From Zychaea mexicana (taxonomy: Eukaryota; Mucoromycota; Mucoromycetes; Mucorales; Lichtheimiaceae): 64,000 nucleotides of DNA. Position 1 is the stretch's first letter; each line of letters begins with the position of its first letter. The notes beneath the pieces were generated by a model, which saw only the letters and a list, made by a program, of their open reading frames with translations, had not been told where the DNA came from and did not search any database. The position numbers and the translations under genes are program-made. The stretch spans positions 248,001 to 312,000 of the forward strand of contig NW_026516664.1 in NCBI RefSeq assembly GCF_025766255.1, written 5' to 3'. Positions 5,551 to 25,699 of this stretch are shown one piece after another.

Positions 5551-7173
5551 ATGGGTCATACCAAAACACAACGGGAGCAGCAACAGGAGCAAGGTTGTGA
5601 ACAAAACCTTACAGTTGGGTGGCATCTTGAAGACAACTCTTCCACAATTAGTACCGTTGTGGCTAATGATAATGGAATCGAAGACCGTGGAAGCAATAAG
5701 GTGGAAGTATCTGTCGACATCATCGACACTAGGAGCGACGTCGTTAGCGGCAGCAGTAGTAGCACGAAAATGAATAAGGAGGACGACTATGATCGAGTCA
5801 CTGTTTTATCATCGCCGGATGATGATAATGACAAAGCGAAGCAAAAACAAGAGCGACAACTAGTACGAGCACTGGATCTGCATATTATCCCATTATTTTG
5901 CATGTTCTATTTTGTCGACTATCTAGATAGAGCAAACATCGGAAACGCTACGTAAGATTCTGAATATTTACTTGCTGTTTTACTAGACATTTAGATCAAA
6001 CCAATGTATTTACTCGATCTATGTAACTATGGAAAATGCACTTTTAATATTGGCTTTTAACATTTTTACACAATTTACTTACTTTAGTATAGCAGGTCTT
6101 CAAAAGGATCTCGGGGTAAGTTGACCCTTGATCAAAGAGTGAATTGGAGGAGATGTCGGTGGTAGTTGTGCCACTTTTAAAAGTACTTTCCAAGTGCAGC
6201 AAACAGTAAGGTTAATACTTAATTACATTAAAGATGACGGGCCCTGAGCTCAGTACTGCTATTTCTGCATTTTTCATTACATATGTAAGCAATGGAATCT
6301 AAAAAGAACTACTGCGTTATAAATTTTCAAAAATCCATATTACTGACTCTCCTTAAATCAATTATAGATCATATTTCAAGTACCTTCAAACATAATTCTA
6401 AAGCGAATTGGTGCACGTTGGTGGCTTTCGTCCATTATGCTTGCTTGGGGTCTTATTACTGTGTCGATGGCTTTGGTCAACAGCTTCACAGGCCTGTTAA
6501 TCACTCGACTTCTTCTAGGGTAGGGCGGCGATAATTCACTTTTTACGTTGTATACGTTATGTGTATTCGATGTTAAACTTGAAAAATTGAACAGTGCCGC
6601 AGAAAGCGGATATGTCCCTGGGATTCTCTTTCAAATGTCACGGATCTACAAGCCCCAGGAAATGGGCTTCCGTGTCGCCATCCTGTTATGCATGAGTGCA
6701 TTATCAGGTATTGTCTCAGGGCCCGTCGCTTACGTCGCCACCAGCATGGAAGGCAAGTTGGGATTACATGGATGGCAATATTTGTTCATCATTGAAGGTA
6801 TCCCTACGGTCCTTTTGGCACTTTTATCCTATTGGGTGCTATTCGACGACGTTACGCAAGTCGGATGGCTCAGCGAGAAGCAAAAGCAACTTCAGGAGGT
6901 ACGGATGGCGGCACATACCAAGGATGGTGGTAGCCAGGAGCCGATTAGCCTGAACACTATACGGATTGTGCTCCTCGATAAAAAGACTTGGCTGTTTTCG
7001 GCAGTGTTCCTTCTTGCGTCCATTAACTTAACCAGTATTGTTGTCTTCATGCCTGTAATGATCAATGGTATGCATTACATGTCTATCGAAATTGATGCTT
7101 CTCGTGGTTACACAGAAACAAAGAAAATTGAACTAGCGTTTAATTTATGTAGGATTCGGATTTACAGCTCTTA
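5551..7173 (+). pseudogene. MFS anion:cation symporter (DAL5/allantoate-permease type), 5' half
   Basis: This is the N-terminal half of a 12-helix plasma-membrane permease of the fungal ACS family, which imports organic anions such as allantoate, nicotinate or pantothenate. The substrate cannot be told from sequence. A long acidic Ser-rich cytoplasmic leader precedes the first family block (LDLHIIPLFCMFYFVDYLDR, then ANIGNAT). Exons: 5551-5951, 6088-6115, 6234-6284, 6368-6519, 6595-7067 and 7153 onward, all with GT-AG introns and matching phases. Further blocks are PSNIILKRIGARWW, RLLLGAAESGYVPG and GWQYLFIIEGIPT. Exon 6 breaks off after GFGFTAL at the TTA of 7171-7173, where the transposon begins. 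The reading frame resumes at 23020. No stop codon or frameshift is seen before the break, so the only lesion is the insertion. Confidence 0.88.
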
Positions 7174-7210
7174 GAGCACTCGCAACGGACCCTGTAAAAT
7201 TTCCTGTAAA
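7174..7210 (+). repeat. Left terminal inverted repeat of the Harbinger element
   Basis: The 37-base end starts GAGCACTCGCAACGG and continues through two CCTGTAAA boxes. It pairs with the reverse complement of the right end with only a few mismatches and one indel. The start resembles plant and fungal PIF/Harbinger ends (GAGCA...CAACGG type). More CCTGTAAA or TCTGTAAA motifs, in both orientations, follow to about 7315 and are probable transposase/Myb binding sites. Confidence 0.85.
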
Positions 7211-7341
7211 CCCGATTTACAGGTCATTTTACACTTTTGTCTTCGCACCGGTCCCTGTAAAATTATCTGTAAAAATGAGAATCTGTAAATTTTTCTCCAA
7301 AACCTGTAAAGTCCTAGGAACAATGGTTCCGCAATGAAAAG

Positions 7342-7412
7342 AATACTGAACCAAAATTTGCGGCGTCCAGTGTTTTTGATACGGCCGCAAACCGCAAATC
7401 CGCGCCGCAAAT
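7342..7412 (+). repeat. Left inverted repeat of the KDZ element
   Basis: A GC-rich stretch dominated by GCGGC/GCCGC words (TTTGCGGCG, ACGGCCGCAAACCGCAAA, CGCCGCAAA), unlike the AT-rich surroundings. It matches the complement of 20141-20216 block by block, with several mismatches and small gaps. Confidence 0.65.
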
Positions 7413-7518
7413 TATGCCTGTACGGCTAATGACTTTTCCGCTCATGGAGAAAGTGGCTGAGTGTGCCTGAAAAAGCCTAACCCTTCGTTCCCATTTCCTA
7501 TTATCAGCGCAAATAAGC

Positions 7519-10468
7519 ATGTCTTTCAATATACGTCAAAAGCGTAAACAAACAACAAAAGCCTATCGATTCTCGGATAAAGGGAAGAAGCTTATCAGAT
7601 TGACAAGCACGGTCAATAAGTCGACTGCAAGTGATATAACCACGCCATTCGAAATTCGAGCATCATCACTCCCAGCCAATTCTTCTCCATCTGACGGATG
7701 GTCAACTGATGATGAGGCGGACGAAGTTGACGATCAGCCAAGACGTCAGACTGCAGCTGTTAAGCGTGCAGTACGCTGGTCTAGCCTTTTTCCTGCGTTG
7801 CTCAAAGCCTATAGAGAAGGGTATAAGCAAGCACCGGTCGCAGAGGCACTCGAGCCTGCCACCCATAAGATGTGTGGTTGCGCTGCTGATAAAAAAGCAC
7901 ACAAGGCTGTCACCTGTATCTTTAAGTGCGGTAAGTATTGTTTTTGGGATATTTTCGCAAAATTTAACACCCTTGTCTTATCTAGGTATTCGACAGTTTG
8001 ACATCGAATACTGCAAGTCGTGCCCTGACTATGCTTTGCCTTTGGTGCTAATGCGCAGTCATATGATTCCTCTGACGCCAAAGGCACCCGGCCATGCAGT
8101 GCATATCAAGTTGATGCAGACAATCCACAATTTGCATTACATTTGCCGCGTCTCCGTGCACAATATTGCAAAATGGCTACAAGCAGATTTTGAGCAAGAG
8201 GTATTACTTTTTCTAGGGCAATCTTTCATCTAGCAAGCTTTTAAATATACTTTTGTTTTTTAGGTTCCTGCCTCTCTCAAGTCTCGCTTGAACGAGGTGC
8301 TGCCTATATTTGGCAGAATACTTCTAAGCTTGAAAAAGCAGTTGAGGGAAGAGTTTGGCGTAGAGAACGATGTCTGCCCAGGTTGCAGATACGTGGTACT
8401 GTAGTGATTTAATTTTTTGATTTGAAGATATACAAAAGTATGCATACATATTTTAATGGTTGTCATGGTTAATATATGGTAGGAGCACGAAAAGACTGTA
8501 GCACTAGACGGAAACTTCCAGCTACGGCGCTTTCGCCATGTAAAGGATGTCCAGGGTATAAACTTTAAAGATGAAGAAGAAGTGAACATGCTCTGGGTTG
8601 ACGATGAAAAGCTCATTCCTTATAATGAATCGGTAAGATAATATTCTGAGAGTCATGTAACAGTATCTAATACAGTTATATTGATTACATGTATAAGGCC
8701 AGAGATGGCTGTGCCTCTTTTGGCGCGCTTGAAAAGCAAGGCGGATCGACCAAGGGTCTTGATCAAACCGGTGCTTTTGCGTGTACCTGTGGTCGCCACG
8801 GCTTTCCACTTGCTATAGTCGATATGCGTAGCAAAGGCGAACGGTATTTAGCTTGCTGTTCCTCATTTTTGTCATCATGTATAAAGTACTCACTCTATGT
8901 ACGTTTAGTTATACCTATGTTCTTAGTGTCTTGAAAAAAGTGACATACAACGAACTGTACGGAAACAACATTCGTATTATGTACGATGTTGGTTGTAAGC
9001 TACGAACTGCTTTAAAGGTACTACTTATAACTTACCTCATGTGCACGATGTCCACATCCTAACATAAGCTTCTAGAAAACACCAGAGTTGAAGGACATCG
9101 AAGATGTTCCCATTGCAGTCGGTATCTTCCATATTACCGGACACAATGCTGCTTGCCAAATTCAATTCCATCCTCGTTTGGTAAAAGGCTTTGGCATGAT
9201 CGATGGCGAGTGGCTCGAGCGAATGTGGTCATACCTCAACGGTTTTGTATCCATCACACGTACTATGTCGTCTCTCAACAGGCGACTCACCCTTACTATT
9301 GCGCTCGACTTTTTCGCAAAAGAAAAAATTGACAACATTGGTACACGAACTTTATATAATGCCTAAAGACTTAGTATAGGCCCCAACTAACATTAGTATT
9401 TTAGGTATCACAATTCAGCGTAAAGAGCAGCGTGCCAAACAATTGCTGGACGATGCTAGAAAGGCCCTCCAAGAAGCAGGGTATCTTGATAAACTAGAGA
9501 TCTTGCTAGCTAAATGGGAAGAGCATATAGCACTTGCAACTCAGGAACCTACGACCGAAACAGGGCGCATCAAAAAAAAGGTCGACAACGCGTACGAAAT
9601 ACTTCGTACAGCTGTTTCTATCTATGACATTATAGACCAAGCATTTAAGATACAAGGAAATGGTAATGTTATACATCTCATTCGTTCAAACTATAAGCAT
9701 AAATTACTTACCCGACAAACGATATATATGTATATATATTCAAGGCCATAATCGCACGCAAAACCTTTCCGACCAAAAGAAGTCTGCCTTGGCAAAGGTT
9801 CAAAAATGCTTGGATGCCTATAACATTGTGGCTAGAAACCATTCAGTTATAGGTAAAGTTAAAACAGTATAGGTTGCTATGTGCAATGCGTACACATCAC
9901 AAACTAAAAATTTCGTTTTACAGGTTTAAGCCCGTTTGATAACAGCGTTTCCAGCTTACTGGCGAAAAACAGCAAATTTAGAAAGCACGCCAATTTGTTA
10001 TCAACGATGGGCGATGACCTACCCTACGATGCTCTTCATGGTTACCTCAGAGCCCAAGAAGAGTTAAAAATGTTGAGGGTATGTAAAGCATGAAATGGTT
10101 TTCGGGGAAGGGGGCTCCTAGGTACTAATGCAAATGCTATGTTATAGGAGGAAGCCATGTCGGTTCTGAAATACGGAAAAGAGCTCGTTCATAAGCTCAC
10201 CGAGGCCACCAAAGGTCCAGAACTGTTTGATAATCTGTCGGACGAGGTTCTTGGAATGGCTGTCATCTGCAAGCAGAAGCTAGTAGAGGCTGAGCGTTGG
10301 AACGTGGATCAAAAACGCCGGCTTACTCGCATTGCTGCAGGTCTCCATTCTGTAGCAAGCAGTGGTAATGTCAGAGGTGAAGATGGCGAGGAAGTTGAGG
10401 AAGAAGCTGAAGATGAAGAATGTGCAGACCTTGCTCAATTCGAAAACTGGATTGAAAGCATCAATTAG
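7519..10468 (+). CDS. KDZ-family transposase with CxC zinc cluster
   Basis: KDZ transposases are large eukaryotic DDE (RNase H-fold) enzymes, common in fungi, that cut and paste their own element. The start at 7519 opens a basic leader, then a Cys-rich CxC module (HKMCGCAADK, CIFKCG, then YCKSCPDY across the first intron at about 7932-7985). The catalytic core has VALDGNFQLRRF near 8500 (first Asp), CTCGRHGFPLAIVDM near 8785, IMYDVGCKLR near 8975 (second acidic block), then HITGHNAACQIQFHP and GMIDGEWLERMW near 9140-9225 (final Glu with the family Cys/His insert). A coiled, charged region and an acidic Glu-rich tail follow, ending at 10468. Roughly a dozen exons join in frame by eye and no internal stop was found, so the gene may be functional. 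Which of the aspartates are catalytic is inferred by family position. Confidence 0.85.
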
Positions 10469-11036
10469 ATGAAAAGCAGCAAAACTCTATTACGTACACT
10501 TCTCTTTTTATACTACCTAGACCATACACACTGAAATATATTCACTGCCATATCTCATGCTTGCTTTTCTAATAGTTTATAGTGCACAGACAACGAGTAC
10601 AATCATGAGATTGACAAGGTCATTATTATATGGTGAACAAAACCTTAATGACAACTGTTCTATATATTTGTCCTAAGGTAAGTACACTTTTAATGGATAA
10701 ATAATAAAGCAGTAAACAGGCAAGAGAAGAGCTTGTCACATAACAAATTTGCGCTATATATCAAGGTACTGTATCATGAAATTGATCGTAAACTTGTATA
10801 TATTAGCACAATTGGATCAAATGGTGTATAGGGAGACACATTTACAATAATAATACCAAAGCATACAGGCCTACTATAATTCATTAGCTACCAACACTGA
10901 ATAAAAACCTACGGTCTATCAAAACTTATATAGCAACCTACCTGTTGCTGCTGTCACTTTGTACTTGAATCTCTTTTGTTATCAGACAGAAAGAGCTTCA
11001 TAGACTTACAGAGGAGAGCTACTGCGTTCTTTTTAG
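10469..11036. other. AT-rich 3' flank of the KDZ transposase gene
   Basis: No coding potential or repeat recognised. It would be the interior of the KDZ element on the left side of the inserted inverted-repeat element. Confidence 0.5.
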
Positions 11037-11440
11037 ACCTCCAGCACCTCAGCACAAAGTAATGGATTGAATTGAGTTTTTAATATGTTGTAAAGTAGCG
11101 TTTCAGCATTCGGATGGTGCCAACTGATGAGCTATACGATCATTTTCTGTGGAGAAAAATATATTAAAGCTGAAAGGTATAGGTGAAAGATGAGGCGATT
11201 GTTGAAAAAAAGCAAAGGGGTTGTTGTTAACCTGTAGTTTTTGCTTAAAAACGGGTCGTTTCGACAATATTTCCGGCAGATTTTCATGTTTCTAGCCAAG
11301 TGTGTAAAGAACGACGAGACGAACACGATGATACCAACCACAATGCTTTACTCGAGTCTTATCGTCTGCAAAAAGGCATTTTGTGGATAATTTTTTTTTT
11401 GTTTTTGTAAGCCGCTCTTTTCGTGAAACGCTCCTTCCCT
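11037..11440 (+). repeat. Left long inverted repeat arm
   Basis: Matches the reverse complement of 17349-17742 from the CCTCCAGCAC end through GTTTCAGCATTCG, ACAATATTTCCGGCAGATTT and AAGCCGCTCTTTTCGTGAAA to a common inner edge at CTCCTTCC. Differences are scattered substitutions and short A/T-run indels. The short open frames in both arms are by-products of the repeat. Confidence 0.85.
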
Positions 11441-11641
11441 AAACGGTTGACGATATGGAAGTTCGTTTTTGATAACGCTGAGGAGCTGAACTCTACATTG
11501 TCGATCATATAATTTTGCTGCGATATTGGGCTCGCGAGTAAAAAAAACTTGTACACGACATTTTTGCGTTTGAACAACTTTAAAACGTACAAAGCTCACT
11601 AGGAGGTCTTCAAATATGTGTGCCACTTAATGAGAAGCGCG

Positions 11642-11754
11642 TGTCATCGAATTGACGGCGCGGTACCATTTAGAACCCCGGGTGTTGTCATCGAATTGAC
11701 GGCGGACAGCGAGGCTTCATTTAAAACCCCGGAACTTGTCATCGAATTGACGGC
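11642..11754 (+). repeat. Three copies of TGTCATCGAATTGACGGC
   Basis: Exact 18-base copies begin at 11642, 11686 and 11737. Each contains the inverted motif GTCA-N6-TGAC. The spacers are also related (ATTTAGAACCCCGG and ATTTAAAACCCCGG). They lie about 90 bases upstream of the first possible exon of the zinc-finger-like gene and about 200 bases inside the left arm. They look like protein-binding sites or the remains of a short tandem array of about 44-51 bases. Confidence 0.8.
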
Positions 11755-11842
11755 TCACTGAAAGCTCTGATCCTGATACTTACACTCACCCCCCACTTAC
11801 CACTTACGTTAAGCAGTGGCATTTTCTTTATTCCTTATTCAA

Positions 11843-12989
11843 ATGGTTCAAACAACTTTTTATCAATTTATGGTATGAAAATTTGCTGTTCTATTTTTCT
11901 GGAATTATTCTGATCAATATAATTCTTTCCTGTTGAAGTCGATGAGAAGATCTTGTCCCCCTTATCAAACTGAGCCAATAATCAGCCAGTTGAGTAATGT
12001 CTCTATCATTGAGAAGTAAAGTTTCCAACCAAACCACGCATGTGATAAACGATGTATAATTGTATGCCTGAAATATGTATGACTAATTTATAGAGGCAAA
12101 CGCCGGGATACAACAGGGAACACGGATACTTTTCATGAAGCATACATATCTTTTCGTCTTCCAACAGACGCCCAAATTAATAGCTTTGAAAAACTGCTAT
12201 CAAAGCGCAGGGAAGATGCAGGAAAACTTGCAAGCGAAGCAGAAAATTATCTTTTAGGATCTTCAAAGGAAAGTGAATCATCCAATATGATTTACGACTT
12301 GATGTGTAGAGCAAAGCGCATCTGGCCTGACGTTCAGTTTAAAGAAGGTACTCATACCCTTCTTTATTGTTGCATTGGATACTGATATCACGTCGTAGCT
12401 TCTTCTAAACTTTATCCTCAAATTGATGCTGGTATGAGCTCGAAACTCATCCGTAAATGCATGTATATACTTTTATTAGTCTAATGGGAAGCCCGCTCTA
12501 TCTAGTATTATATCTAACTACTACAATATTCGTGTGAATGATACGAATGAGGATATGATATACCAGCAACGCTCGAGTAGATTTCACGATGAAGGTTATT
12601 GGGGCGGTACTTACTTCAACAACAGATTGGCGTTCGACAACATTTATATCGGATATATCGCAAGGATCATCACCGGCACACTGTTCAGTGGATTGTAGAT
12701 AAACCAAAAGCATGGACAAAGGTAAGAAATGGCGGGTGTTGGTCATTTAGAGCATGGTAAATTCCGGTGCCAATGGTTGATCTGTCCAAGACGCTACGCG
12801 TTCTGGTCACAATGTGAGAGAAAGTATACACGCAAAGCCGACCTCTATAACCATCTACGTGACCATCACAGCGTCGCAATTCCGAAATTTGAAGCGTGGA
12901 AGAAGTGTCGCTCATCATACGACAGACGCAAAAAGAGAAGCAGTGGGTCAAAATCAATGTTTAAAGATGAAATATCAATTTTGTATTAA
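11843..12989 (+). pseudogene. Zinc-finger-like gene remnant carried by the inverted-repeat element
   Basis: Several stretches look coding. A possible start is at 11843 (MVQTTFYQFM before a GTATG donor). An exon from about 12096 to 12346 begins GKRRDTTGNTDTFHEAY and ends VQFKE before GTACTC. There is further open frame at 12484-12698. The last frame (12729-12989) holds a C2H2-type signature, FRCQW...QCERKYTRKADLYNHLRDHH, followed by a basic Arg/Lys tail. I could not connect all exons in one frame: at least one junction near 12433-12484 gives a stop. The finger itself is separated by 11 extra residues. The origin may be a DNA-binding protein of the element or a captured host gene. I recognise no specific family, and the product is probably not made intact. 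Confidence 0.4.
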
Positions 12990-15900
12990 ATGCATATGCT
13001 GCTATGTACATAGAACAAGGTCTCTCAAAGAAAACGTAGAGCAAAGAACTGAAATTTTAAATTTTGGTACAATCATTAGAAGGTAAGAAAGAATACTTGT
13101 TGCATCACTAATGTAAAGTGAATAAATTTGCATTCCCGTTTGCTCTATTTCCTTATAATTTGTTTTTCTCATGGTTACGTGTATACTATGTACTTTGTTA
13201 TTTGATCGACTGCCTGCATTGTTAATGTGATCCATTACAAGGAAGAATGTCTACACATAAAAAGTTTCTAACATATTTATCTGAGCATATATCAGTCTAT
13301 GTACTGCTACTATGACGTTAAAAAATATGTCTCATCATCTACTTCTTTTGAAAACAAGAGTTTATTTTGTTTTGGAAACTGTAACAAAACGCTTGTCGCA
13401 TTCTTATCAGCTCGTTGTAAAAGGGGAGATGAAAGGGCAAACTACAAATACACTTTAAAGTTATGGCGGTGGATATATGCTATCTAAAAAAAGCCGTCAT
13501 GGCGATTACGAATGTACCATAGCCACAATAAGATAATATAACCTTTTTATTATAGTACTTTGTAAATGCTTTAAGATTCAGCAAGTACAACAAGTATGAC
13601 ATGTTCTCATTTCTAACCTCTCATGTCATCTGTTGCAGTATGATTCAATGCATATATATTACTGTTTATAAATGCTTTGTTACTATGTGATAGAAAATAT
13701 CACTTGATGTGAAACTAAGAAAACTGTTTGTCTTTTACTTTTACATAAGTTTGTACCAGAGGATAGAAACAAACAAATGAGGAATCTTTTATATAAATGC
13801 TTAATATCTAAATAGTAGTATAAAGTAGATCACTTAATTTCATTGTAAATGCTATTAACGAACAATTTTGATGTTGTTCTTTAACTTCTTATATATTATC
13901 TATACTTGTATCAGTAGCCTAATTTAAAAAAAGAAACTATAATAAGTTACCACTATGCATATATAAAGTTGAAGAAACATATATAAGTAGCTGAATGTAC
14001 ATACTGATCAATTCAGAAAGTTAGCAACAAACTTTTTAATCTCGATCGTCATATACAGCAAACTACAGTTATGTTGTTATAATGCAATATATTGTTGTTT
14101 TTTTTAGCGTCTACTGTATCATACATCGATAGAACAGGTTTCATTCTTATTTTTCTGACTGGTATTAATACAATCGTTAGTATATTTATCTATTTATTTA
14201 CTCTAATATGTGTGTATGATCTTGGTTAATCGTACATTCCATTCATATTTTGATTTCTATTTTCATTTGGAAAGCTCATTCAGTAAGTACACCAGCCTGT
14301 ATATCAACTTGTAAACCGCAAAACTTTTTTATGCAAATCGTTGTTACAAGATTTACTCTAATCAATCTATACCTCTATGTTCGTGTACCAAGTACTAAAG
14401 AAATCCGTAAAAGTCATTCTTATCTACCATGATACTCTAAGTCTTCTTCTCCCTCACATACATTAATACACGTGAACGAGCGACATTTCTCTATAATTAT
14501 TAGTAGACACTTTTCATGAATAAATAAGATGAAAGTTAAATATGTTTTGTAAAAGAGTATGTTTTAATGATGTCTATGTATGAAAGCTATACGCATTTAT
14601 TGTTCTCATTGTCTCACATTAAGTATGTAGCCAGTAAAACCGACTATTGAAGAATAACTAATGGTTTGAACATTTATCCCATAAAAGAGCTACCTACAAC
14701 ATTCCTTTTTCAAAGGATAACTGCAAAACGCACGTAGTTATGTGCTGTAGTTAACGGTAAAATCAGTACTTATTGTTTTTCTACTAAGGCTGCATCGTTA
14801 TAGTGCTTATTATTGGATCAGACATCGACTTAGCAATGTGCGTTCTCTCAGCTAATACATTAAAATCTTCCATTCTTTTTCTATATTCTTCAAAACCGTT
14901 ACTTTTCTAGTATTAGATATACTTGACGCTATTAGAGCAAATGGTAAATAGTTTTCTAGCATGAGATGGCAGTTTATGTAGTTCATGAAGCCTTAGAGAC
15001 CATAAGTATGCCGTCACTTCAAAACCCTAATCCCTGTATTTTGCTAATATCGGAAAAAACGCTTAACGCTTCGTGATATTTCCTCTATCTATTTTGTCAG
15101 CATTCCATCACCCTTGATTGATAATGCCACGTAGCGAGCAGCTAAAAACTGATTCTATTCAGTGAGTATAACACCGGTCCTAATCGACATTGACCTTTAT
15201 GAGCAATACGGTTGAAGCTTCCTCTTTCCATTTGTTTTTGCTATCTTTACACAAGGCAAATGATTCTCGTCGGCTAAAAGGAAAACCGCTGTTCCAATGT
15301 AATGATGTTTGGGGAAAAGGGTGTTGCGGGGATATTGTCCGAAGTAGAGATGGATGCTGGTTTAGGCTGAGAATCAATCTTGAATGTTGCACAGTGGGAA
15401 ATATGATGAGGCGGCGAAAGAGCGTGTTAGCTGTAATATTTGTTGTGGTCCTCAGGATAACTTTTCACTCCTTTGCTTTTCTTTGAGATAAATAAAAGCT
15501 ATAACGTCCTTTCCTAAATACATTTAATAAGGCTATGCATATGTTATGTAAGTTCCCTCTCTTGTATATAGAAAGAAAATAAAAGCGAAAGCAAGGCTAC
15601 TTTTCCTCGCAGTAATTTTTGTCGTACCAGCGGAGAAGAAGGGTTAAAAAAAATGTTCATAAACCGCGGTATCGGATGAATGTAGTACGTAATATGGCTC
15701 GGGTGCATCTTTGAGCATCAGCTGTAGGAGTTATGGCTTCAGTATAAAAAGGAGCATCCCGGGGCCTGATTTTGGAACGTGTTTTCCTCTCATTTTCTGT
15801 TTTCCTTTTTGTCAACTTCTATCGTTTGCGGTTATTATACTTTCACCATGATCGTCCCTCGTTTCCTGGCGTTATCTTTTTCGCTCTGATGTTAGCTACT

Positions 15901-16079
15901 GGCCTGTTGCAGATTTGAAACTGATGAAGGTAAGCATTCTTTGATCCTATTTCCTTTACTGCTGAAACTTTGCTGTATCATTATTTCTACTCCTCTTCTT
16001 ATATTCTCATTTCAGTCAATTGCGTGATGTAGTTCGTTGCAGTTGCTGTAGGCACACTCTTCATGGCTGTTCTGTTTAG
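12990..16079. other. AT-rich interior of the inverted-repeat element
   Basis: No gene recognised in this stretch. A TATAAAAAGG box near 15744, followed about 100 bases later by a short ATG frame and a GTAAGC donor near 15930, hints at a promoter and a spliced, possibly non-coding transcript. That is inference only. Confidence 0.45.
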
Positions 16080-16435
16080 GGTGTCTATGGGGAGCCGCTG
16101 CTGGTTCTCCTTTCGAAATGTCTTGGTGTGTGCTCGCTGCTGATGTTCTTGTCAGATGACATCCGAAGTGTGTGTTCCCTGCCGTTACTGCTGTCGTAAT
16201 GCTCAAGATGTATGTTCGCTGCTGGTGTTGCCTTCGTGATATCCCAGGCCTTTGCTCACCGCTGGTGTTCCTGTGGTATCCTAGGTGTTTGCGTGCTGCT
16301 GTTGTTGCTGTCAAACCCTAGCTGTGTTCCATGCCGTTACTGCTATCGAAATGCCCAAGGTGTATCTTTGCTGGTGATCCTGTGGTAATGTTCATGGTGT
16401 CTATATGTCACTGTTGCTGCTGTCGTGCTCTCCAT
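16080..16435 (+). repeat. Degenerate ~39 bp tandem repeat, about nine units
   Basis: Successive units begin GGTGT and contain a GCTGCTG-type core, then GTCG/GTGG and ATGCCCAA-like ends (consensus near GGTGTnTGTTCGCTGCTGGTGTTGCTGTCGnAATGCCCAA in pieces). Unit length drifts between about 37 and 45 bases. Open frames on both strands here follow from the repeat's lack of stops and do not resemble a known protein. Confidence 0.6.
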
Positions 16436-18152
16436 CAGATGTTGTACACGGGGTTGTTGTTCCATTCTATTATGCTGTTTACTATGTTTCGGTCTTTTGG
16501 TTGTTGTTGCCATGCTATCTAGTGTGGTTTTACCTGCTACTGCTATTGCCAGTACTGCCTTTGGATATCTTTGTTGTTGCATTTGATAACCCTGTCTCAC
16601 CGTTCTCATTGACTGACTGTCGTTATGTTTCATGCCTTTCGTGAAAGCTCTTGTTACTCAAGATGTAATAGCTTAGCGGAAGCTATTGTCTGTTTAGTTA
16701 GTGGTGTACAGATATTACCTTACTCCTAACTGTATTTGTGTCTTTCTCCAGCAATATCTTGGAATGCAAGTATCGATTTTGGTCATAAAGCAGTTTTCAG
16801 TGCTTATGAGCCTCAGTTTTGGTATGTATCACTGGTATGTATGTGTTAAAAGTAATTAGTGACTAGTAAAAAAACAAGAATATGTAGTTAGTTACCTTTG
16901 TATTATATTTAACGAAGTAAAAGGAACACGTTATTATGGTTTTTATTTGTTCTATTTGTTTGTTGGTTAAGTGTGTACTTGTGGAATGATATGTATATGT
17001 AAGCATAGTTATATGGATCAGTGTACAGATGGTTAAAAATCTTTCTGAGTGATGATATACTCGCATTGTTTTTGCTTCGTTTCGAAGATCTTGTCAAAGT
17101 ATAGCATAAGTGATGTCGTGCACTCTATTACAGACAGTGGATTAAAAAAGTAGCGTCCCTTTGACATAGGTGACTTCAGATGCTGACTTCAGGAGTGAGA
17201 CCTTTCGTACTATACAAGCTAGTGGACATCTTCGTGCGGGGAGAGGAAGTAGCTGTACCTTGCAGAATCGACTTGGCAAAAAAAAAAGAGAGGTGAGCTG
17301 ATGACGCAACATTACTAGGTCGAAGTGAATTCGCGTACCTTCACCCGCATAAGGAAGGAGCGTTTCACGAAAAGAGCGGCTTGCAAAAACAAAACAGAAA
17401 AAATCAAAAATATCCACAAAAGTGCCCTTTTGCAGACGATAAGACTCGGGTAAAGCATTGTGGTTGGTATCATCGTGTTCGTCTCGTCGTTTCTTTACAC
17501 ACTTGGCTAGAAACATGAAAATCTGCCGGAAATATTGTCGAAACGACCCATTTTTTAGCAAAAACTACAGGTTAACAACAACCCCTTTGCTTTTTTTCAA
17601 AAATCGCCTCATCTTTCACCTATACCTTTCAGCTTTTTCTCCACAGAAAATGATCGTATAGCTCATCAGTTGGCACCATTCGAATGCTGAAACGCTACTC
17701 TACAACATATTAAAAACACTTTTGTGCTGATGTGCTGGAGGTGGCAGAGCGGTGGTAGTGATTGATGATGAAAAAAGATAACCCCGCCTTAGCAGCAGTT
17801 GGATAATGTTAATAAGGAGTGAATTAATGGACAGAAAACTGCTTGTGTATTATTATATGACACCTTTGGTGTACTTCATAGATAGAAATAGCTTACGATA
17901 CATTGTTGTCTGCTGAACAATACAAATGTGATTTCAAGCTTATGTACAAACAGCTTGCCGTAGCTAATAAGAACAGAAGTTCACGGTCAAAACATAAAAC
18001 TTACCATCTACTGCGTGCAGCTTGAATCTAATACTATCCCATCAAGAAAAAGAAACTGTATATAGGTTAGAATTGAGTATTCGTTTGAAGTAGAAATATA
18101 TGTAGTATATAAAAAAGAAATAAGATAAGGGAGAGGATCGGATTTAAGGACT
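16436..18152. other. Non-coding remainder, right arm and KDZ spacer
   Basis: Apart from the inverted arm at 17349-17742, no gene or repeat is recognised. 17743-18152 belongs to the KDZ element downstream of its accessory gene. Confidence 0.5.
17349..17742 (-). repeat. Right long inverted repeat arm
   Basis: The inverted copy of 11037-11440. It begins at GGAAGGAGCGTTTCACGAAA and ends at TGCTGATGTGCTGGAGGT. Inward of this arm the similarity to the left side stops abruptly, which supports it as a discrete repeat. Confidence 0.85.
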
Positions 18153-18225
18153 TCATTGTTGCTGTTGATCTTGCAACTGCTGCAACCGTTGCAATTGCTG
18201 CTGTAGAAGCTCTATTTGTTGTTGT

Positions 18226-18257
<32 letters not shown>

Positions 18258-19954
18258 ACTCTGTTCTTGTTGGTGTTGTTGTTGCTGCTGCTGTGATACT
18301 GGCGTGTAGAGGAAAGTGATTCCGTCCAACACAGCCGTCACTCTACGCCTGTATTCAGCAGCGTCCTCTTTCCAGTGGCTGGGTGTTGCTAAAGGGACGT
18401 CATCAGGCCAGCCAACTAACGAAATGCTGTACTTTTTTCGATTGATGACACCATTTCCATCTTCAAACTTTTTCCACGGAAAATTCGTGATCTTTTTGAA
18501 GCCTTCAACTTTACCAAGCAGAGTCTCATCTAGTAAGGCATACATCGCAACTGAGTGGCTGAACCATTTGATATCAAGCCTTTTTAGTTACTTACTGTAC
18601 GAATTGATGATTTTGTTGACAATTGTACTTTCGACCTGCTGCTTGGAAGCACTCGAAAATGAGCTGCAGAGTCGGGGTCGCTTGACTCCACGGGAAGAAG
18701 AGGAACGATTGTCGGCTGCAATAGTTGTCGGAGAGGATGATGATGGAGATGGAGGGATTTCGGTGGCATTGTTGGTTTCAGGATCAATTGGGACGGTCTC
18801 AGTAGCGGCTAAATAGGAAAGTCAGAGCTACTTCTACATCTTTACTTAATACATTCATATACATACCCTTCCTGTTGAAGTCATAGCATTCACTTTTGAA
18901 TATTTCCTTCAATCTGAAGGAAACGTCTTCGACCTGGTCTGCTTCTACCTTCTCTAAGAAGGCGATTCCTGCGTCTAAATCGAGTTTTTAATTTGTTGAT
19001 CTTCACGACGAAAGGAAAATGAAACTCACCTGATCCAACTGCATCAACGGGAACCACCTTGCTCGTGAGCTTGTCCGGCGAGAAAAGACACAAGGTTTCA
19101 ACACCACATTCTCGTTTCAGCTGGACAAGGTTGCGGCCCATGCAGTCGATGAGCAACTTCAGCTTCAACTTTGCCGACTGAACGGTCTTTTGTTCAGTGG
19201 CGCCAATGCTTTCGTTGTGCTCGGTTGTTGCTCGGATCAGGTCCGCCTTCAGTTCCGGATCGTTCATCAAAGCTTTGTATTCGTCAGACTTTTGCTGAAC
19301 GATATATCCAGCGTGACGATTATCGTCCTTCAGCATTCCCCTATCTAAGCGTACAGAAAAATACTGATTAATACGAGTGTTGTATCGTGCCTGCATTCTT
19401 GTATTTGCTATTATTAAGATGATATAACCTTCTGCATCGTAATGAAGGGACAGGAAATGCTGCCAGGTGTTTCGTTTGCCGGCGTGCTTGCGAAGCAATG
19501 GCAATCTCACCGGCAGGAGCTCCTCGACGCGCTTTCCATACTTGGCGGCAATTTGGGCTTGACCTGCCTTCATGCGGTCAAGCAACTCTTTTTCAAGAGC
19601 TGCCAGATCAGCCTCCATTTCCTCGTCGGCTTCGGCCACAGCGGACGCAACTGCTTCGTCAGCTGCAGCATCTACTACGTTGCTGGAGGCAGACTCGAGT
19701 TCCATCTGCTCAATAGCAGTCGCCACGTCAGCGGTTGCATCAGTTGTCATTGGAGCTTGGTCGAATGAAGCTTTTGCAGCTTCAATTCTTTCCTTCATTA
19801 CTGCCGCTTCGTAATTGCATTCGGAAACGAAATCAATGAAATCATCATTATTAAATATTTCCGTCTCTTCTTCTGTTGTTCTATTCTCTTTGACAAAAAG
19901 TCGGTAGAGTTTAAAAGCGGTTTCAATATGGTCTTTTGTCAACAAGGGATTCAT
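18153..19954 (-). CDS. KDZ-element accessory protein, HMG-box-like segment and polyglutamine tail
   Basis: This minus-strand gene lies inside the KDZ inverted repeats. I chose the start at 19954 (MNPLLTKDHIETAF), after which coding-like composition begins. The order is: an acidic Ala/Glu-rich region; a conserved-looking block (HAGKRNTWQHFLSLHYDAEG, spliced to DRGMLKDDNRHAG) resembling the HMG-box-like 'KRNTWN-F' domains of fungal transposon partner proteins; a basic helix near QSAKLKLKLLIDCMGRN; a Ser/Pro-rich stretch with a KRPR signal; a WPDDVPLATPSHWKED block; and about 40 mostly Gln residues at the end. At least four introns join in phase (for example at about 19346-19430, with the frame open through it). 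Its function is unknown; a DNA-binding helper of the KDZ transposase is an inference from position and charge. Confidence 0.6.
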
Positions 19955-20140
19955 TTTAAAATTGCAGAAAAAGGGAGGTAAGAAGTAGTAAGGAAGAAGT
20001 TGGTGTCTCAACATCTGGCTTCTCTCTGTTCTATTATCAAGCGTTTCACAAACTTTCGCATCATTCACTACAGAGTCACATTTCACAAGGTTCTCGACAA
20101 TTACACTTTTTTGAGCAATTACGGCAGAGTTCTATTTGAG

Positions 20141-20216
20141 TTTGCGGCGTAATTTATTTTTGCGGCTTTTGCGGCCGTTATGAATATACTGGGGCCGCAA
20201 AAATTTGCCCAGTATA
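20141..20216 (-). repeat. Right inverted repeat of the KDZ element
   Basis: TTTGCGGCG, TTTTGCGGCCGT and GGGGCCGCAAAAATTTGC, then CAGTAT, form the mirror of the left repeat. The segment lies just outside the accessory gene and about 100 bases before the Harbinger Myb gene, so it marks the boundary between the two elements. Confidence 0.65.
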
Positions 20217-20312
20217 ACCATTACTGCGGCGGCGGTAATACTAGCTGAAAGTAACAGGTCCTGTCTGAGCTCCTGTAAAAACCCCCTTCTCTTTTGAAAC
20301 AAACTTTTTAAC

Positions 20313-21302
20313 ATGAACACCAACAACAGCATTCCCACTTCTACGACTACGGTCACTTCTGCCCCCGAAACCACCCTCCCCTCAAGCCGAAATGCTACCG
20401 CTGCCTCCTCTGTCGCAACTGCCGACCAAAAGAAGACGAAAGGTGCTTGGTGGCGCAATGACGAGGATCAGCTCTTGGTCCAAGCCTACCTTCTAATCAA
20501 CAAAGATGAAAAGGTTGGCATCAACCAAGATTCGAAAACGTTTTGGCAACGCGTTTTTGAAGAGTTTGAAAAAGGTGGTAACGACAAGAACCGCACTCCC
20601 GAAAGTTGTCAAGGTCGTTGGGAGATTATCAGCGCGCAAATCGCGAGATATGCAGCGGCTGTGGCCTTTATCGAGAGAGGGCCACCAAAAAGTGGCGAGG
20701 CCGATGATGACAAGGTAGTCTTTTGCACATTAAAATGCATATAACAGATTCGAGAAGTTCCTTTCTTTCTGATAAAGTTCATATAATAGAAGCAGCGCAT
20801 CGTCGAAAGGTATAACAGCAAAGCCGAAGCACGGTATAAGCCTTTCAAGATGGCTCATTGCTGGCCTCTGCTGAAGAATGAGCAGAAATTTAAGTTCGTC
20901 AGCGACAAGGCCAACGAGGTCAGCGTGGATGGTGAGAAGGATGTGCGGCCCCTTGGTAACAAGAAAGCCAAGGCTCTGAAGAGACGACACGCCGAAGACG
21001 ACGATCTCGCGAGCCTGGCTGATGAACAGGTGAAGCTCGCCCGTCTCGAGGTCGTCGAGGAAGAGAAGAGACGCAGACTCTTAGAAGAGATGCTCAAAGA
21101 AGCGCAAAAGGCGAACGAAGAGGCGCGACTGGCTAGAGAAGAAGCCATCATGAGCAAGGACTTGGACTCTCTTAGTCCTGCTCAGAGATGGTACTTCGAG
21201 AAGAAGCAACAGGAAATCGTAGATCGATTGAAAGAAGAGACGGAGAAGGATGTGGTCCAGGAAGGAGAGTCCGGAGACTGTTCGGAGGAAGAGTGTGAAT
21301 AA
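20313..21302 (+). CDS. Harbinger Myb/SANT-like DNA-binding protein
   Basis: PIF/Harbinger elements encode a second protein with a Myb/SANT-like trihelix domain that binds the element ends and recruits the transposase. After a Ser/Thr-rich leader the domain starts at KGAWWRNDEDQLLVQAYL and runs through KTFWQRVFEEFEK and RTPESCQGRWEIIS, the usual three-helix pattern with its Trp residues. One intron (20716-20789) interrupts it. The second exon has YKPFKMAHCWPLLKNEQKF, the family's typical 'H.W..L....KF' block, then a long charged coiled coil (about residues 200-300) and an acidic tail ending at 21302. The gene converges with the transposase, 72 bases apart. The frame looks intact. Confidence 0.85.
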
Positions 21303-21374
21303 AGCGCGAGAAACGATGACCGTTCTTCCGAACATATAAAAAAAAACAGCTGTACTGCATCGAAAGGTAAGTAT

Positions 21375-22797
21375 TTATTGTACGTGAGATCCATATTGGT
21401 GCCACATGTGCTCGATTAGATCATTGCGTAGTGAGTCATGGACAGTGCGGTCCATGATGGCATTGTTCACTCGTTGCATTATGTGAGCTTCGGCTGCACC
21501 ATCGCGAGAAAACGACGGCTCAACCTGGAAAGAAGCCTTCTCGTAATCGAAGGTTTCTTTCTTGTTGTAGTCGTACGTATCTCTCTCATCTTCAACAATG
21601 ATGTTATGCAAAATTATGCACGTCTTCATTATGTTTGACAGTTCGGAAATTGACCAAGAAAGTGCCGGGTGCCTGACAATTGCGAAACGCGCTTGCAGCA
21701 CGCCAAACACACGCTCAATATCCTTACGGACAGCTTCATGTCTCTCCTTGTAGTACTAAAAAGTTTGGTAAATAATATTGGACAAATGTTATCTGTTTCT
21801 AATTTTTTATCGTCAATAAATAGAACAGTACCTTTTGTTTGTTGTCCAAAGGATACTTAATACTTTTCACAAACGTTCCCCACCGGGGGTAGATGCCGTC
21901 AACCAAGTAAAATCCTTGATTGTACTCTTTGCCATTTACTTGAAACTTGACAGTTGGCGCACGTTGGCTGATGACATCGTCGAACAAAGGAGACCTATGC
22001 AGAACATTGATGTCGTTGTTCGATCCAGGTACGCCGAAATGACAGTGCCAGATCCAAAGGTCTTGCGAAGCAACGGCTTCAAGAATAACTGACGGGCCGC
22101 CTTCTTTGCCACTGGTATACTGGCCATGCCAACCTGTTGGGCAGTTCTTCCAGCGCCAATGCATGCAATCCAAAGATCCCAGCATGCCAGGGAATCCGCG
22201 CTGCTCGCCAAAAGCAAGAAGACGCTTCAGGTCTTCGTCAGTTGGACGCCGGAGGTATTCTTCGCCGAACGATTCGATGATACCTCGACAAAACTCCCTC
22301 AGAGTATGTCTGGCTGTGGATTCAGCCATTCTGAAGTAGTTGTCGACGGCATCTGCAGATCCGCCGTACGCCAACATGTTGATGGCCACACATACCTTCT
22401 GAATTGCCGAAAATCCAAGTCTATTAGCTGCGTCGCGTCTTTGCTGGAAGTAGGTGTACTTTGTCTCAAGCACGTTCACGATACGTAGAAAGAGTTCACG
22501 TCTCATACGGAAGCGGCGTCGAAAAGTGGCTGCATCGTTCATACAGTCTTCATTGAAGTAGTCTCTCATGAGCAACCACTCAAAAAGCGGACGCAAGCGA
22601 TCCTTGTATCGTCGTCCAGGAACAGAGCCACTGCTACCCTTGCGTTTGCCGACCGAGTATTTGCGAGCTTGGATCTTGTCGATCAACTCCAAAAGGCGTC
22701 TCGAGCCGCGTTTCTGTTGCTTGCGTTTTTGGTGATTCTCTTCCTCAAATATAAATGCGCTTTGCACGATTCGATGAACAATAGATTGCGGATTCAT
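21375..22797 (-). CDS. PIF/Harbinger DDE transposase
   Basis: This DDE superfamily endonuclease (plant-transposon/DDE_4 type) mobilises the outer element. From the start at 22797 it has a basic leader, a helix-turn-helix-like region (FSAIQKVCVAINMLAYGGSA), and the catalytic core: LGSLDCMHWRW (first Asp, near 22190), GQYTSGKEG, VPGSNNDINVL, YLVDGIYPRWG (second Asp, near 21890) and RKDIERVFGVLQARF (Glu, near 21710). A single intron (about 21755-21829) lies between DNKQK and YYKERHEA. The C-terminus (IMKTCIILHNIIVEDERD) is the classic Harbinger helper segment. All three catalytic positions and the frame are intact, so the protein should be competent. Confidence 0.9.
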
Positions 22798-22978
22798 TTT
22801 GAAAGAGAAGGTAGCGAAACCGAAATATATTTCACGCTGCCCCGGTCTATTTCTTTAACAATTTATGACGTCGCTATTTCGCGTTATTCGCGTTACACTC
22901 GCAATTAACGCTTATATTTTACAGGAACCGTTGTGAAATATAGACCTGTAAAATGATAAATTATTTACAGGACCCGAT
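22798..22978. promoter_or_regulatory. Right subterminal region of the Harbinger element
   Basis: The upstream region of the transposase gene. It contains several CCTGTAAA/TTTACAGG boxes (near 22918, 22944 and 22964) that match those at the left end. They are likely binding sites for the Myb-like protein or transposase, and may overlap the transposase promoter. Confidence 0.5.
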
Positions 22979-23016
22979 TTTACAGGAAATTTTTACAGGC
23001 ACCGCTGCGAATGCTC
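22979..23016 (-). repeat. Right terminal inverted repeat of the Harbinger element
   Basis: Read on the minus strand, it starts GAGCATTCGCAGCGG and then CCTGTAAAAATTTCCTGTAAAA, mirroring the left end. It abuts the TTA at 23017-23019. Further CCTGTAAA/TTTACAGG motifs occur back to about 22915. Confidence 0.85.
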
Positions 23017-23764
23017 TTACAACGCAGTTACTTTCGGCCCCGCCTGCTGCTGTAACTTTCCTCGTAATATTACTATGCGGATTTCTTGCAGATCGCGGAA
23101 ATAAACGAGCTGTTATGGTCAGCTCTGGAGCAGGCATTATGGTTCTTGGTTACACTATGTTAATGCTTCTTCGTGATCGTTGGGGTATGTTTATGAATAT
23201 ATATTTCTGTCAACCGCTTGTTACGCGTATTAATTTTATGTGATTAGCGTGCTATGCTGCTCTTTTCATCATTGCTGCAGGTATCGGTGTTGAAGCACCC
23301 GTTGGTGTTAGCTGGTCAGCTATCAATTACCCGGATTTGACAGTTCGTGCTGTAGCCGTTGCATTAGTTAACATGATGGGAAACTTCGGAAACGTGATTG
23401 CCTCTTTTATCTACACTGTTCCAGGAGACACAAATCACAGTAAGCATGCCTTCACGTCTTGATACTTTTCACTAATCTGACCTGTCTGTATAACTTGTAC
23501 ATCAACATTTCTTTGGTAGCTTTCGGTCACACCTTTAATTTGATCTCTGCTCTTGGTACTGCCTTTTTTGCAGTATTCATTGGCTTGTTGCTGCGCCGGC
23601 AAAATCGTCGACTTGAACAAGCATCGTCATTTTCATATGTAGAAAAGAGCGACATGGTATGTATTGTAATATACAACAATAGCATTGTCAATTTCCTGAA
23701 AAATGTTTTAACGACACCATGTATATAGCAACAGCGACAGCGGCAATTTCGGGTTTACTACTAG
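23017..23764 (+). pseudogene. MFS anion:cation symporter, 3' half
   Basis: This is the continuation of the permease begun at 5551. After the TTA repeat the frame resumes as TTQLLSAPPAAVTFLVILL then CGFLADRGNKRAV, which follows GFGFTAL of exon 6 as in intact family members. Exons: 23020-23184, 23248-23439, 23520-23656 and 23729-23764, with helices including GVEAPVGVSWSAINYP and ALVNMMGNFGNVIASFIY. The protein ends with a short basic tail. No stop or frameshift is present, which suggests the insertion is recent and that precise loss of the element would leave a usable gene. Confidence 0.87.
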
Positions 23765-23915: not shown

Positions 23916-25699
23916 CTAAAAGTCGTCATCAGAGAAGAATTCATCAGAGTCATAATTGAGTTGTTCAAAGTTGACACGGTATCTAAGTATAAGTATTAAA
24001 TGTAAGTTAGTACGATTGACTATAACCGCATTTTCTTTGTAACTCTCCACAAGATATAGAGTCAACTCCCTCTTCAGACATTAGACATTTATGAATGATT
24101 ACTCTACCTGAGAATACCGCCAATACCACCAAAGCCTTTGACAAACTGAGCACCTTCCTGCGAACGGTTGGTAACAAATTCGAGGTTGGTACCGAAATCC
24201 TTGTAGCTTTCAGCGAACCATTCGAGAAGGGGCTTGACATCGACAACTTCCATTTCCGAATTTGGTGCTGCCTCTTCGCAGGTGTCCTTAATGAACAATC
24301 GATCCTTCTCCTCCTGCTTGGTAGGATGATAGATGATCTCCTGACCAGCTGCATTGCGAAGCACATATCTGTTCATTTCCAAGTTTTCCCAGACAATTAA
24401 GTTCTCCACAGCACCCAATTCCAAAGCCTTGAGCGTATCATCGACACCAAAGCAGTATTTGCCGCTATCTTGGGAAATTTCGTCAAAGTAGGACTGAATG
24501 AGTTTCTTTTCTTGCACAAACTTGACGTTGGAAAGCGACTCGGCGGATAATTCGATAGCCTGGTTAAAACCGTTCTCACCACCGTACGAAACGTCAACAA
24601 CCTTGACAATCTTTGCCTGCAAACGAGGATCAAACATATCGGATTGTGACAATTCGTTCTTGAAATCAGCAGAACCGGCCAGCACAAGGCCAGCAACGTT
24701 AACCTTGTCAGCAGTGATGAAGAATGAGACGGCCAATTCTGCGATCTTGCGAACGTAGTTGTGACGCTTTTCCTCACGCAAACGCGAGAAACGGAGAGCG
24801 GACTGACCACCACGACCGTGCTTCTTGGGCAAATCGACTTGCAGTTTGTGAATCACGTCACGAGTGTTACCGGACAAGGTACCAAACAGCGAACCGTTAC
24901 CATCCATAATGATGAAACCAAACTTGGCGTCGTCTTCAAGCAATTCGGACAGAGCTTCGGTGTGGAACTTGTTGTCGCAAAGATACAAACTGGTGTTGAT
25001 GGGCTTGTGTGGCTCAAAGTCAATGTTGACCTTCTTTTCCTTGCCTTCGTCAGTTACAATGGTACCGCAGTATACGACCAAACCATTTGGTGGCACTACA
25101 ATCAATGAAATCATCGAGAGAGGGAATTAAAGCGATGAGCTGTTCTGTTGGTTGTGTGGCGACTGGTACTCGTTTCACGGATAATAAAGGATGCAATCGT
25201 GTGTTCCTCTTCCTCTGGCTAACCTTTGTTGTACAACTTCAATCTTTGCTGGGTGGATGTAATGGCGGATAAGACAGAGAGACGGTTAACGCGAGATTTA
25301 ATGTTGGATGCTGTGCCGTATTCGTCTGCTAACATTTTGCCAACACGGGAAATCTGATCCTTTGGGGCTATCATAAACATATATGCATACGTGAGCCTAC
25401 ATACACAAACGCATATACAAACCAGTTGCGCAAGATATTGTTCCCTTTCTTGCCCCAGCTTCCCACTGTTTTGACTCAATTACGTACGAATAATAAGGGA
25501 AATCATTGAAGTGCCGTTGCTAATTGAGGTAAGAAAAAGTTAGTTTAGGCAAAAGCATAACGATACATATTTAGAGAAACTAAAGAAGGACAGGCGAGAA
25601 AGATACACACCCTCGTGCTGCTTCCAAGCTCTTGATGAGCTTCTTCATCTTCCACATTTCGACATTGTGGTCAGTTTGGCCTTCTGCACTTGCGGACAT
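23916..25699 (-). CDS. SUP45: Eukaryotic peptide chain release factor 1 (eRF1)
   Basis: eRF1 recognises all three stop codons in the ribosomal A site and triggers peptidyl-tRNA hydrolysis, working with eRF3. Exons (minus strand): 25611-25699, a micro-exon 25488-25519, 25224-25367, 24108-25095 and 23916-23982. The N domain has TASNIKS and YLCDNKF, the stop-codon decoding motifs. The M domain has [14 protein letters not shown], the catalytic GGQ loop. The C domain ends FGGIGGILR, then spliced to RYRVNFEQL and an acidic tail DEFFSDDDF, like other eRF1 proteins. Length is about 440 residues, as usual. Stopping at the TAG at 24103-24105 would leave out the acidic tail; a GTAGAG donor there explains the apparent early stop. 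Confidence 0.95.

Follow-up and report, generated by a model that had tools for sequence, protein, structure and literature searches.

How many separate elements are present when one transposable element seems to lie inside another is a question raised by an interrupted exon of an MFS transporter gene in Zychaea mexicana (Mucorales). The window, that is, the whole stretch of 64,000 nucleotides analysed here, corresponds to positions 248001-312000 of contig C1 in an assembly of 50.3 Mb and 305 contigs, and no paper on the transposable elements of this species was found in the open-licence literature. A sequence-only reading of the window had described a three-level nest, in which the host exon contains a Harbinger element, the Harbinger element contains a KDZ element and the KDZ element contains a third transposon of 6.7 kb with long inverted arms. 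The levels of host exon, Harbinger and KDZ stand, and the third is unsupported, since the arms recur in diverged KDZ copies. Two transposition events are evident at this locus; the supposed third layer makes better sense as an inner component of the KDZ element itself, one that may go back to an ancient insertion. At the level of the host the nest is an ordinary one, its order of arrival being cleanly recorded by empty sites. A single element whose inverted repeats lie inside it can look like a transposon within a transposon, and this is a trap for repeat annotation.

The interrupted transporter gene and the Harbinger element

The 5′ side of the host gene lies at 6524-7173 on the forward strand (MFS_1, E = 7.7e-15), and its exon is broken after 7173. 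When the exon flanks are rejoined over the Harbinger insert they stay in frame as GFGFTALTTQLLSAPPAAVTFL, with the host frame resuming at 23020, and this continuation together with the MFS_1 match on the 5′ side bears out the placing of the insertion inside a host exon. A genome search for an empty allele with the host stretch 23000-23640 returned that stretch alone. The neighbour of the transporter gene is a peptide chain release factor eRF1 gene (24104-25126, reverse strand).

The Harbinger element is flanked by TTA at 7171-7173 and 23017-23019, as had been read earlier, and its tips at 7174 and 23016 are the imperfectly inverted GAGCACTCGCAACGG and GAGCATTCGCAGCGG. Its left end (7174-7310, forward strand), as far as the KDZ insertion, and its right part (20248-23016) are 97.8-99.3% and 98.3-98.7% identical, respectively, to three full-length sisters on contigs C123, C119 and C277, which carry the duplications TAA, TAA and TTA, respectively. 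The flanks of the C123 and C119 copies are almost identical, so these two may represent one duplicated or allelic site. The transposase gene (21375-22797, reverse strand) has one intron and is open for 448 amino acids; its two exons score 232.5 and 84.4 bits against PF04827 (cut-off 22), and against PF13359 exon 2 scores 25.7 bits and exon 1 15.6 bits (cut-off 24.8). Its Myb/SANT-type partner (20313-21302, forward strand) matches the NAM-associated domain (E = 1.1e-13, 52.8 bits, cut-off 27.7) and, slightly below the cut-off of 22.9, Myb_DNA-bind_6 (E = 2.7e-4, 21.5 bits). Both genes had been called intact, which holds for the transposase; the Myb-like, NAM-associated gene consists of two open stretches. 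Judged by its 3-bp TWA-type duplication and its DDE transposase, the outer element belongs to the Harbinger superfamily.

The KDZ element and the order of arrival

The KDZ element occupies about 7311-20247, a length of 12.9 kb. Its transposase gene (7519-10468, forward strand) could be set by hand as 11 exons giving 749 codons without a stop, and it contains the KDZ domain PF18758 (E = 1.8e-40, 139.4 bits, cut-off 26.6), by which the element appears to be a member of the KDZ superfamily. Upstream, the CxC zinc-chelating domains fall slightly short of their cut-offs (CxC1, 25.7 bits against 26.9; CxC2, 24.0 bits against 27). At least 12 database proteins among 7994 candidates, in Circinella (Circinella minor and Circinella umbellata), Fennellomyces and Zychaea, match the transposase; the best of those listed reach 46% identity across 94% of the query, or 50% across a 40% portion of it. 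Convergent to it is an accessory gene (18156-19957, reverse strand) with a glutamine-rich end, which is known from genome copies and from four database matches among 8000 candidates scored, the window's own included, all of them from Zychaea mexicana; a predicted structure of its protein was discarded because of a mean pLDDT of 37.6. Repeats of the TTTGCGGC type lie close to both tips of the element, and a search of the tips for terminal inverted repeats found none. The right tip ends in TG, and the left one is GTCCTAGG or TCCTAGG, and so not CA.

The borders and the order of arrival can be read from other copies in the genome. A query of 227 bases spanning the left Harbinger-KDZ junction gave 17 matches including the window; the 16 others consist of seven with Harbinger only and nine with KDZ only, so that the junction itself recurs in none of them. 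The KDZ element is absent from all seven other Harbinger left-end regions, and in five of these the exact empty site is visible: the copies on C123, C119, C277 and, twice, C190 (97-99%) run uninterrupted and without KDZ through CCTGTAAAGTAACAGG, one of the two on C190 without the first 26 bases of the query. In C250 and C253 (94 and 89%) the left and right Harbinger pieces are adjacent. Uninterrupted Harbinger copies, which had been named as a check on the nest, thus exist, and they show the order host exon, Harbinger, KDZ, an order that, as had been said, can still be read; the KDZ copies also resemble one another more closely than the Harbinger copies do, in agreement with a later arrival of KDZ.

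Empty Harbinger copies join 7310-7312 directly to 20245-20248, the KDZ copies that keep a left end mostly begin at 7310-7312 and the best right ends finish at 20247, so the narrower borders given before (7342-11036 plus 17743-20216) have to be replaced by about 7311-20247. The left-hand KDZ copies on C267 and C77 and the right-hand one on C91 have other flanks, and where compared they match that of the window at 99.4-99.9% identity. Of 18 pairs of left and right flanks compared, one alone shares more than 3 bp: the 7-bp sequence TAGTGCT stands at the outer borders of both the C77 left flank and the C91 right flank, and because of this the two are probably one KDZ copy split by the assembly. 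In the window, the insertion of KDZ left a duplication of just AAA or AAAGT, 3-5 bp according to the position given to the left tip, where 7-8 bp are the mark of the KDZ superfamily.

The whole 15.8 kb unit had also been proposed as a cargo carrier. Its anatomy permits this: neither of the Harbinger genes and neither of the Harbinger tips is interrupted by KDZ, so transposition of the unit would be possible in principle, but movement as one unit is not seen among the 16 other matches to the junction query.

The internal arms and the core they enclose

The inverted arms themselves are real. The left arm (11037-11464, forward strand) and the right arm (17327-17742, reverse strand) are about 400 bp long as described and 96.7% identical over 360 ungapped columns; segment by segment, the identity is 98% over 146 bp and 98% over 84 bp, and further in 87% over 94 bp and 79% over 87 bp. 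The 6.7 kb block ends in ACCTCCAGCAC. An RNA role of the arm has no support, since a consensus fold of six arms has 29 pairs and none with changes on both sides, and a coding role was set aside, since gaps in the arm alignment are not multiples of three. A search of Rfam over 7000-23100 gave one match, at chance level.

The core (11465-17326) was found once in the assembly, in which a search gave no second copy of 11552-16803. Just inside the left arm it carries three near-palindromic copies of TGTCATCGAATTGACGGC (11642-11754, forward strand), a number reached by none of 100 shuffles. Three short open stretches at 12083-12986 (forward strand), of which the last contains a C2H2 finger scoring weakly, below the Pfam cut-off, are a possible small gene of the core; its relatives were sought in the genome, which returned the stretch itself alone, and in the protein database, which returned none at E ≤ 0.001. 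The region 16000-17000 shows strong AT skew (-0.354) and diverged repeats of about 40 bp, and two open reading frames scanned there gave no Pfam match.

Outside the window, ten loci carry the arm (C267, C91, C32, C61, C69, C45, C135, C284, C13 and C242). It stands 3′ of the KDZ gene in C267, C61, C69 and C45 and adjoins the accessory gene in C91, C32 and C13. The outer end CCTCCAGCAC is common to the arms of C267, C61, C69, C91, C32 and C13 and is worn in C45. Arms with the same outer end thus hold the same place in KDZ copies that are 66-85% alike, and because of this the 6.7 kb block seems to be a feature of the KDZ family. In their matched KDZ parts, C61 and C45 have diverged from the window by 18-34%, and therefore the arrangement of gene and arm is older than that split. 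Among the KDZ copies read across the arm site, none is without an arm, most KDZ copies being truncated or unread there.

When window positions 10100-12100 were compared with C61 and C45 per 100 bp, the end of the gene showed 56-77% identity, 10600-10999 21-51%, the arm (11100-11499) 60-79% and the DNA inside the arm 31-46%, except for one block of 57% in C45; the control, one shuffled sequence for each of the two copies, gave 28-54%. In these two copies, therefore, the arm is as conserved as the exons, and the 400 bp outside it and the inner DNA are at the level of the shuffled control. The exceptional block in C45 holds the motif TGTCATCGAATTGACGG, which has four exact matches in the genome, three in the window and a fourth immediately inward of the C45 arm. 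If as many as two mismatches are allowed, it occurs at 26 places against five for the reversed control, some of them in or by the KDZ elements of C45, C61, C235, C146 and C207. One mismatch is present at three loci, of which those in C61 and C235 adjoin a KDZ gene and that in C28 has no KDZ among the matches listed; copies with two mismatches adjoin the accessory gene in C146 and C207. The motif block is inverted in C61; flipping of the core was kept as a lead at most, since the C61 arrangement is unlike a simple flip. A swapped core in C32 was considered and dropped, since that contig yielded no transposase half and its copy may be truncated.

The wide spacing of the two genes is found elsewhere as well. 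The accessory protein has 13 loci in the genome including the window, and among the matches listed four of them (the window, C207, C146 and C143) lie no more than 12 kb from a KDZ match, with the two genes convergent in all four. From about residue 472 of the KDZ protein to about residue 170 of the accessory protein, the gap is 10.1 kb in the window, 8.4 kb in C207, 8.5 kb in C146 and 11.0 kb in C143, and about 3.4 kb would be expected in the window minus the 6.7 kb block. C207 and C146 resemble copies of one repeat, and the accessory matches in C207, C146 and C143 are distant ones (about 40% identity, E about 1e-9), known by their spacing, with the arms unread.

In a tree of 11 arms, those of the window, C267, C91 and C32 are grouped with 100/100 support apart from those of C61, C69, C45, C13, C135 and C284, and within the window group the left and right arm types are sister groups (98/93 and 87/85). 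The C13 arm, of the right type, is closest to the left-type arms of C61 and C69 (86% over 122 columns) and takes a tentative place in the tree. Left and right arms thus seem to coalesce within lineages, which would fit exchange by recombination between the two arms of one element and also separate insertions at one site; the latter are less likely, since outer end and flank coincide.

Competing explanations and known systems

The account that we hold to be quite probable is a nest of two steps, in which the 6.7 kb block forms the core of the KDZ element itself. A Harbinger element entered at TTA in the transporter exon, and the 12.9 kb KDZ element later entered it about 137 bp from its left tip, upstream of the Myb/SANT-type gene. 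The anatomy strongly suggested for the KDZ element is transposase, arm, core, inverted arm and convergent accessory gene, and the block would be its own core whatever the remote origin. The earlier model makes the block a DNA transposon in its own right, with long terminal repeats, that forms the third layer of the nest. Its sharp inverted ends, the greater likeness of arms within than between lineages and the arm pieces of C242, C135 and C284, which have no KDZ or accessory neighbour among the matches listed (the best 60 of 176 in the KDZ protein search), agree with that model. However, site and outer end are the same in KDZ copies 66-85% alike, no flanking duplication was seen on reading the junctions at 11037 and 17742, the nine of 27 core open reading frames scanned with Pfam gave no transposase match, and the wide gene spacing is kept at the other two-gene loci. 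By the marks of an own transposase and a flanking duplication, the block does not look like an independent third transposon. The stray arm pieces moreover are without the outer end and are read as remnants; that of C242 starts 38 bp inside the arm and was taken as a truncated piece, for which reason independent mobility of the arm was rejected. We therefore regard a separate third transposon as very improbable. As a side observation, C135:8382-11584 and C284:394544-397746 are copies of a dispersed repeat, 94-98% alike, that includes the inner part of the arm and whose pieces recur in C37, C13, C90 and C235.

A variant of the preferred account, and not exclusive of it, is that a single insertion entered an ancestor of the KDZ element long ago and became fixed and integral, the arms being former terminal repeats that acquired a role or were kept alike by gene conversion. 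It would account jointly for the transposon-like arms, their orthologous position and the lineage-wise tree; however, nothing related to the ancestral element was seen, the scanned core reading frames show no transposase, and with the present assembly the variant is inseparable from an original core. It is considered possible and rather doubtful. A misjoin in the assembly, which would have created the inverted arms or the nest, is slightly less probable even than a separate transposon. The core occurs once only, and contigs end within the same element (C267 at 271331, C77 at 81457 and C91 at 68073), which marks it as difficult for the assembler; because these contigs run off their ends, the sister cores are unassembled and there is no second intact copy with two arms. 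However, the Harbinger-KDZ junctions match independent copies on both sides, C267 independently has the left gene-arm junction and C91 the right arm-gene junction, and the host reading frame carries on across the insert.

In the preferred two-step account the arms would probably be constrained DNA, perhaps a docking site; the leading guesses for their role are a shared 3′ control region of the two convergent genes and a partner in recombination. Recombining with each other may keep the two arms similar in each lineage. A more far-reaching and unlikely idea is that, in a KDZ lineage of the Mucorales, selected and homogenised arms frame a fast-changing core that can be flipped or replaced by arm recombination, that is, an exchangeable compartment. 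Galileo and Foldback elements reportedly have long inverted repeats and are said to be linked to inversions. Those repeats are terminal, whereas the arms of the window element are internal to its two genes. If exon-like conservation of the arms is general in this KDZ group, they would be a functional DNA part absent from the excerpts of KDZ literature consulted, and no KDZ element with inverted arms in its interior was met in the portions of the open-licence literature available.

The outer element resembles the PIF/Harbinger elements of the Nuwa-like type, which in the excerpts available have a two-gene layout (PMC12730594), in its 3-bp TTA/TAA duplication and in its DDE transposase with a probable Myb/SANT-type partner; nothing unlike a typical member was noticed except the 12.9 kb insert, and the lineage is a tentative placement. 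The inner element is like KDZ (Kyakuja/Dileera/Zisupton) elements in being large and many-exoned, with a KDZ domain far over the cut-off, and it differs in that its second gene is the accessory gene, whose listed matches are in Zychaea only. Filing it under Kyakuja was rejected because its left tip does not fit CA..TG termini. That no terminal inverted repeats were found does fit, and so would the 7-bp duplication of the inferred C77/C91 pair, Kyakuja being described, in the part of the source available, with a 7-bp duplication and no such repeats (PMC12730594). The KDZ1-3 elements of C. neoformans, according to the available part of their description, are about 9.2-11 kb long with 4-8 bp duplications and terminal inverted repeats of 139-241 bp (PMC12810828), whereas in the KDZ element of the window no terminal inverted repeats were found, and internal arms of about 400 bp stand on either side of a core some 6 kb long.
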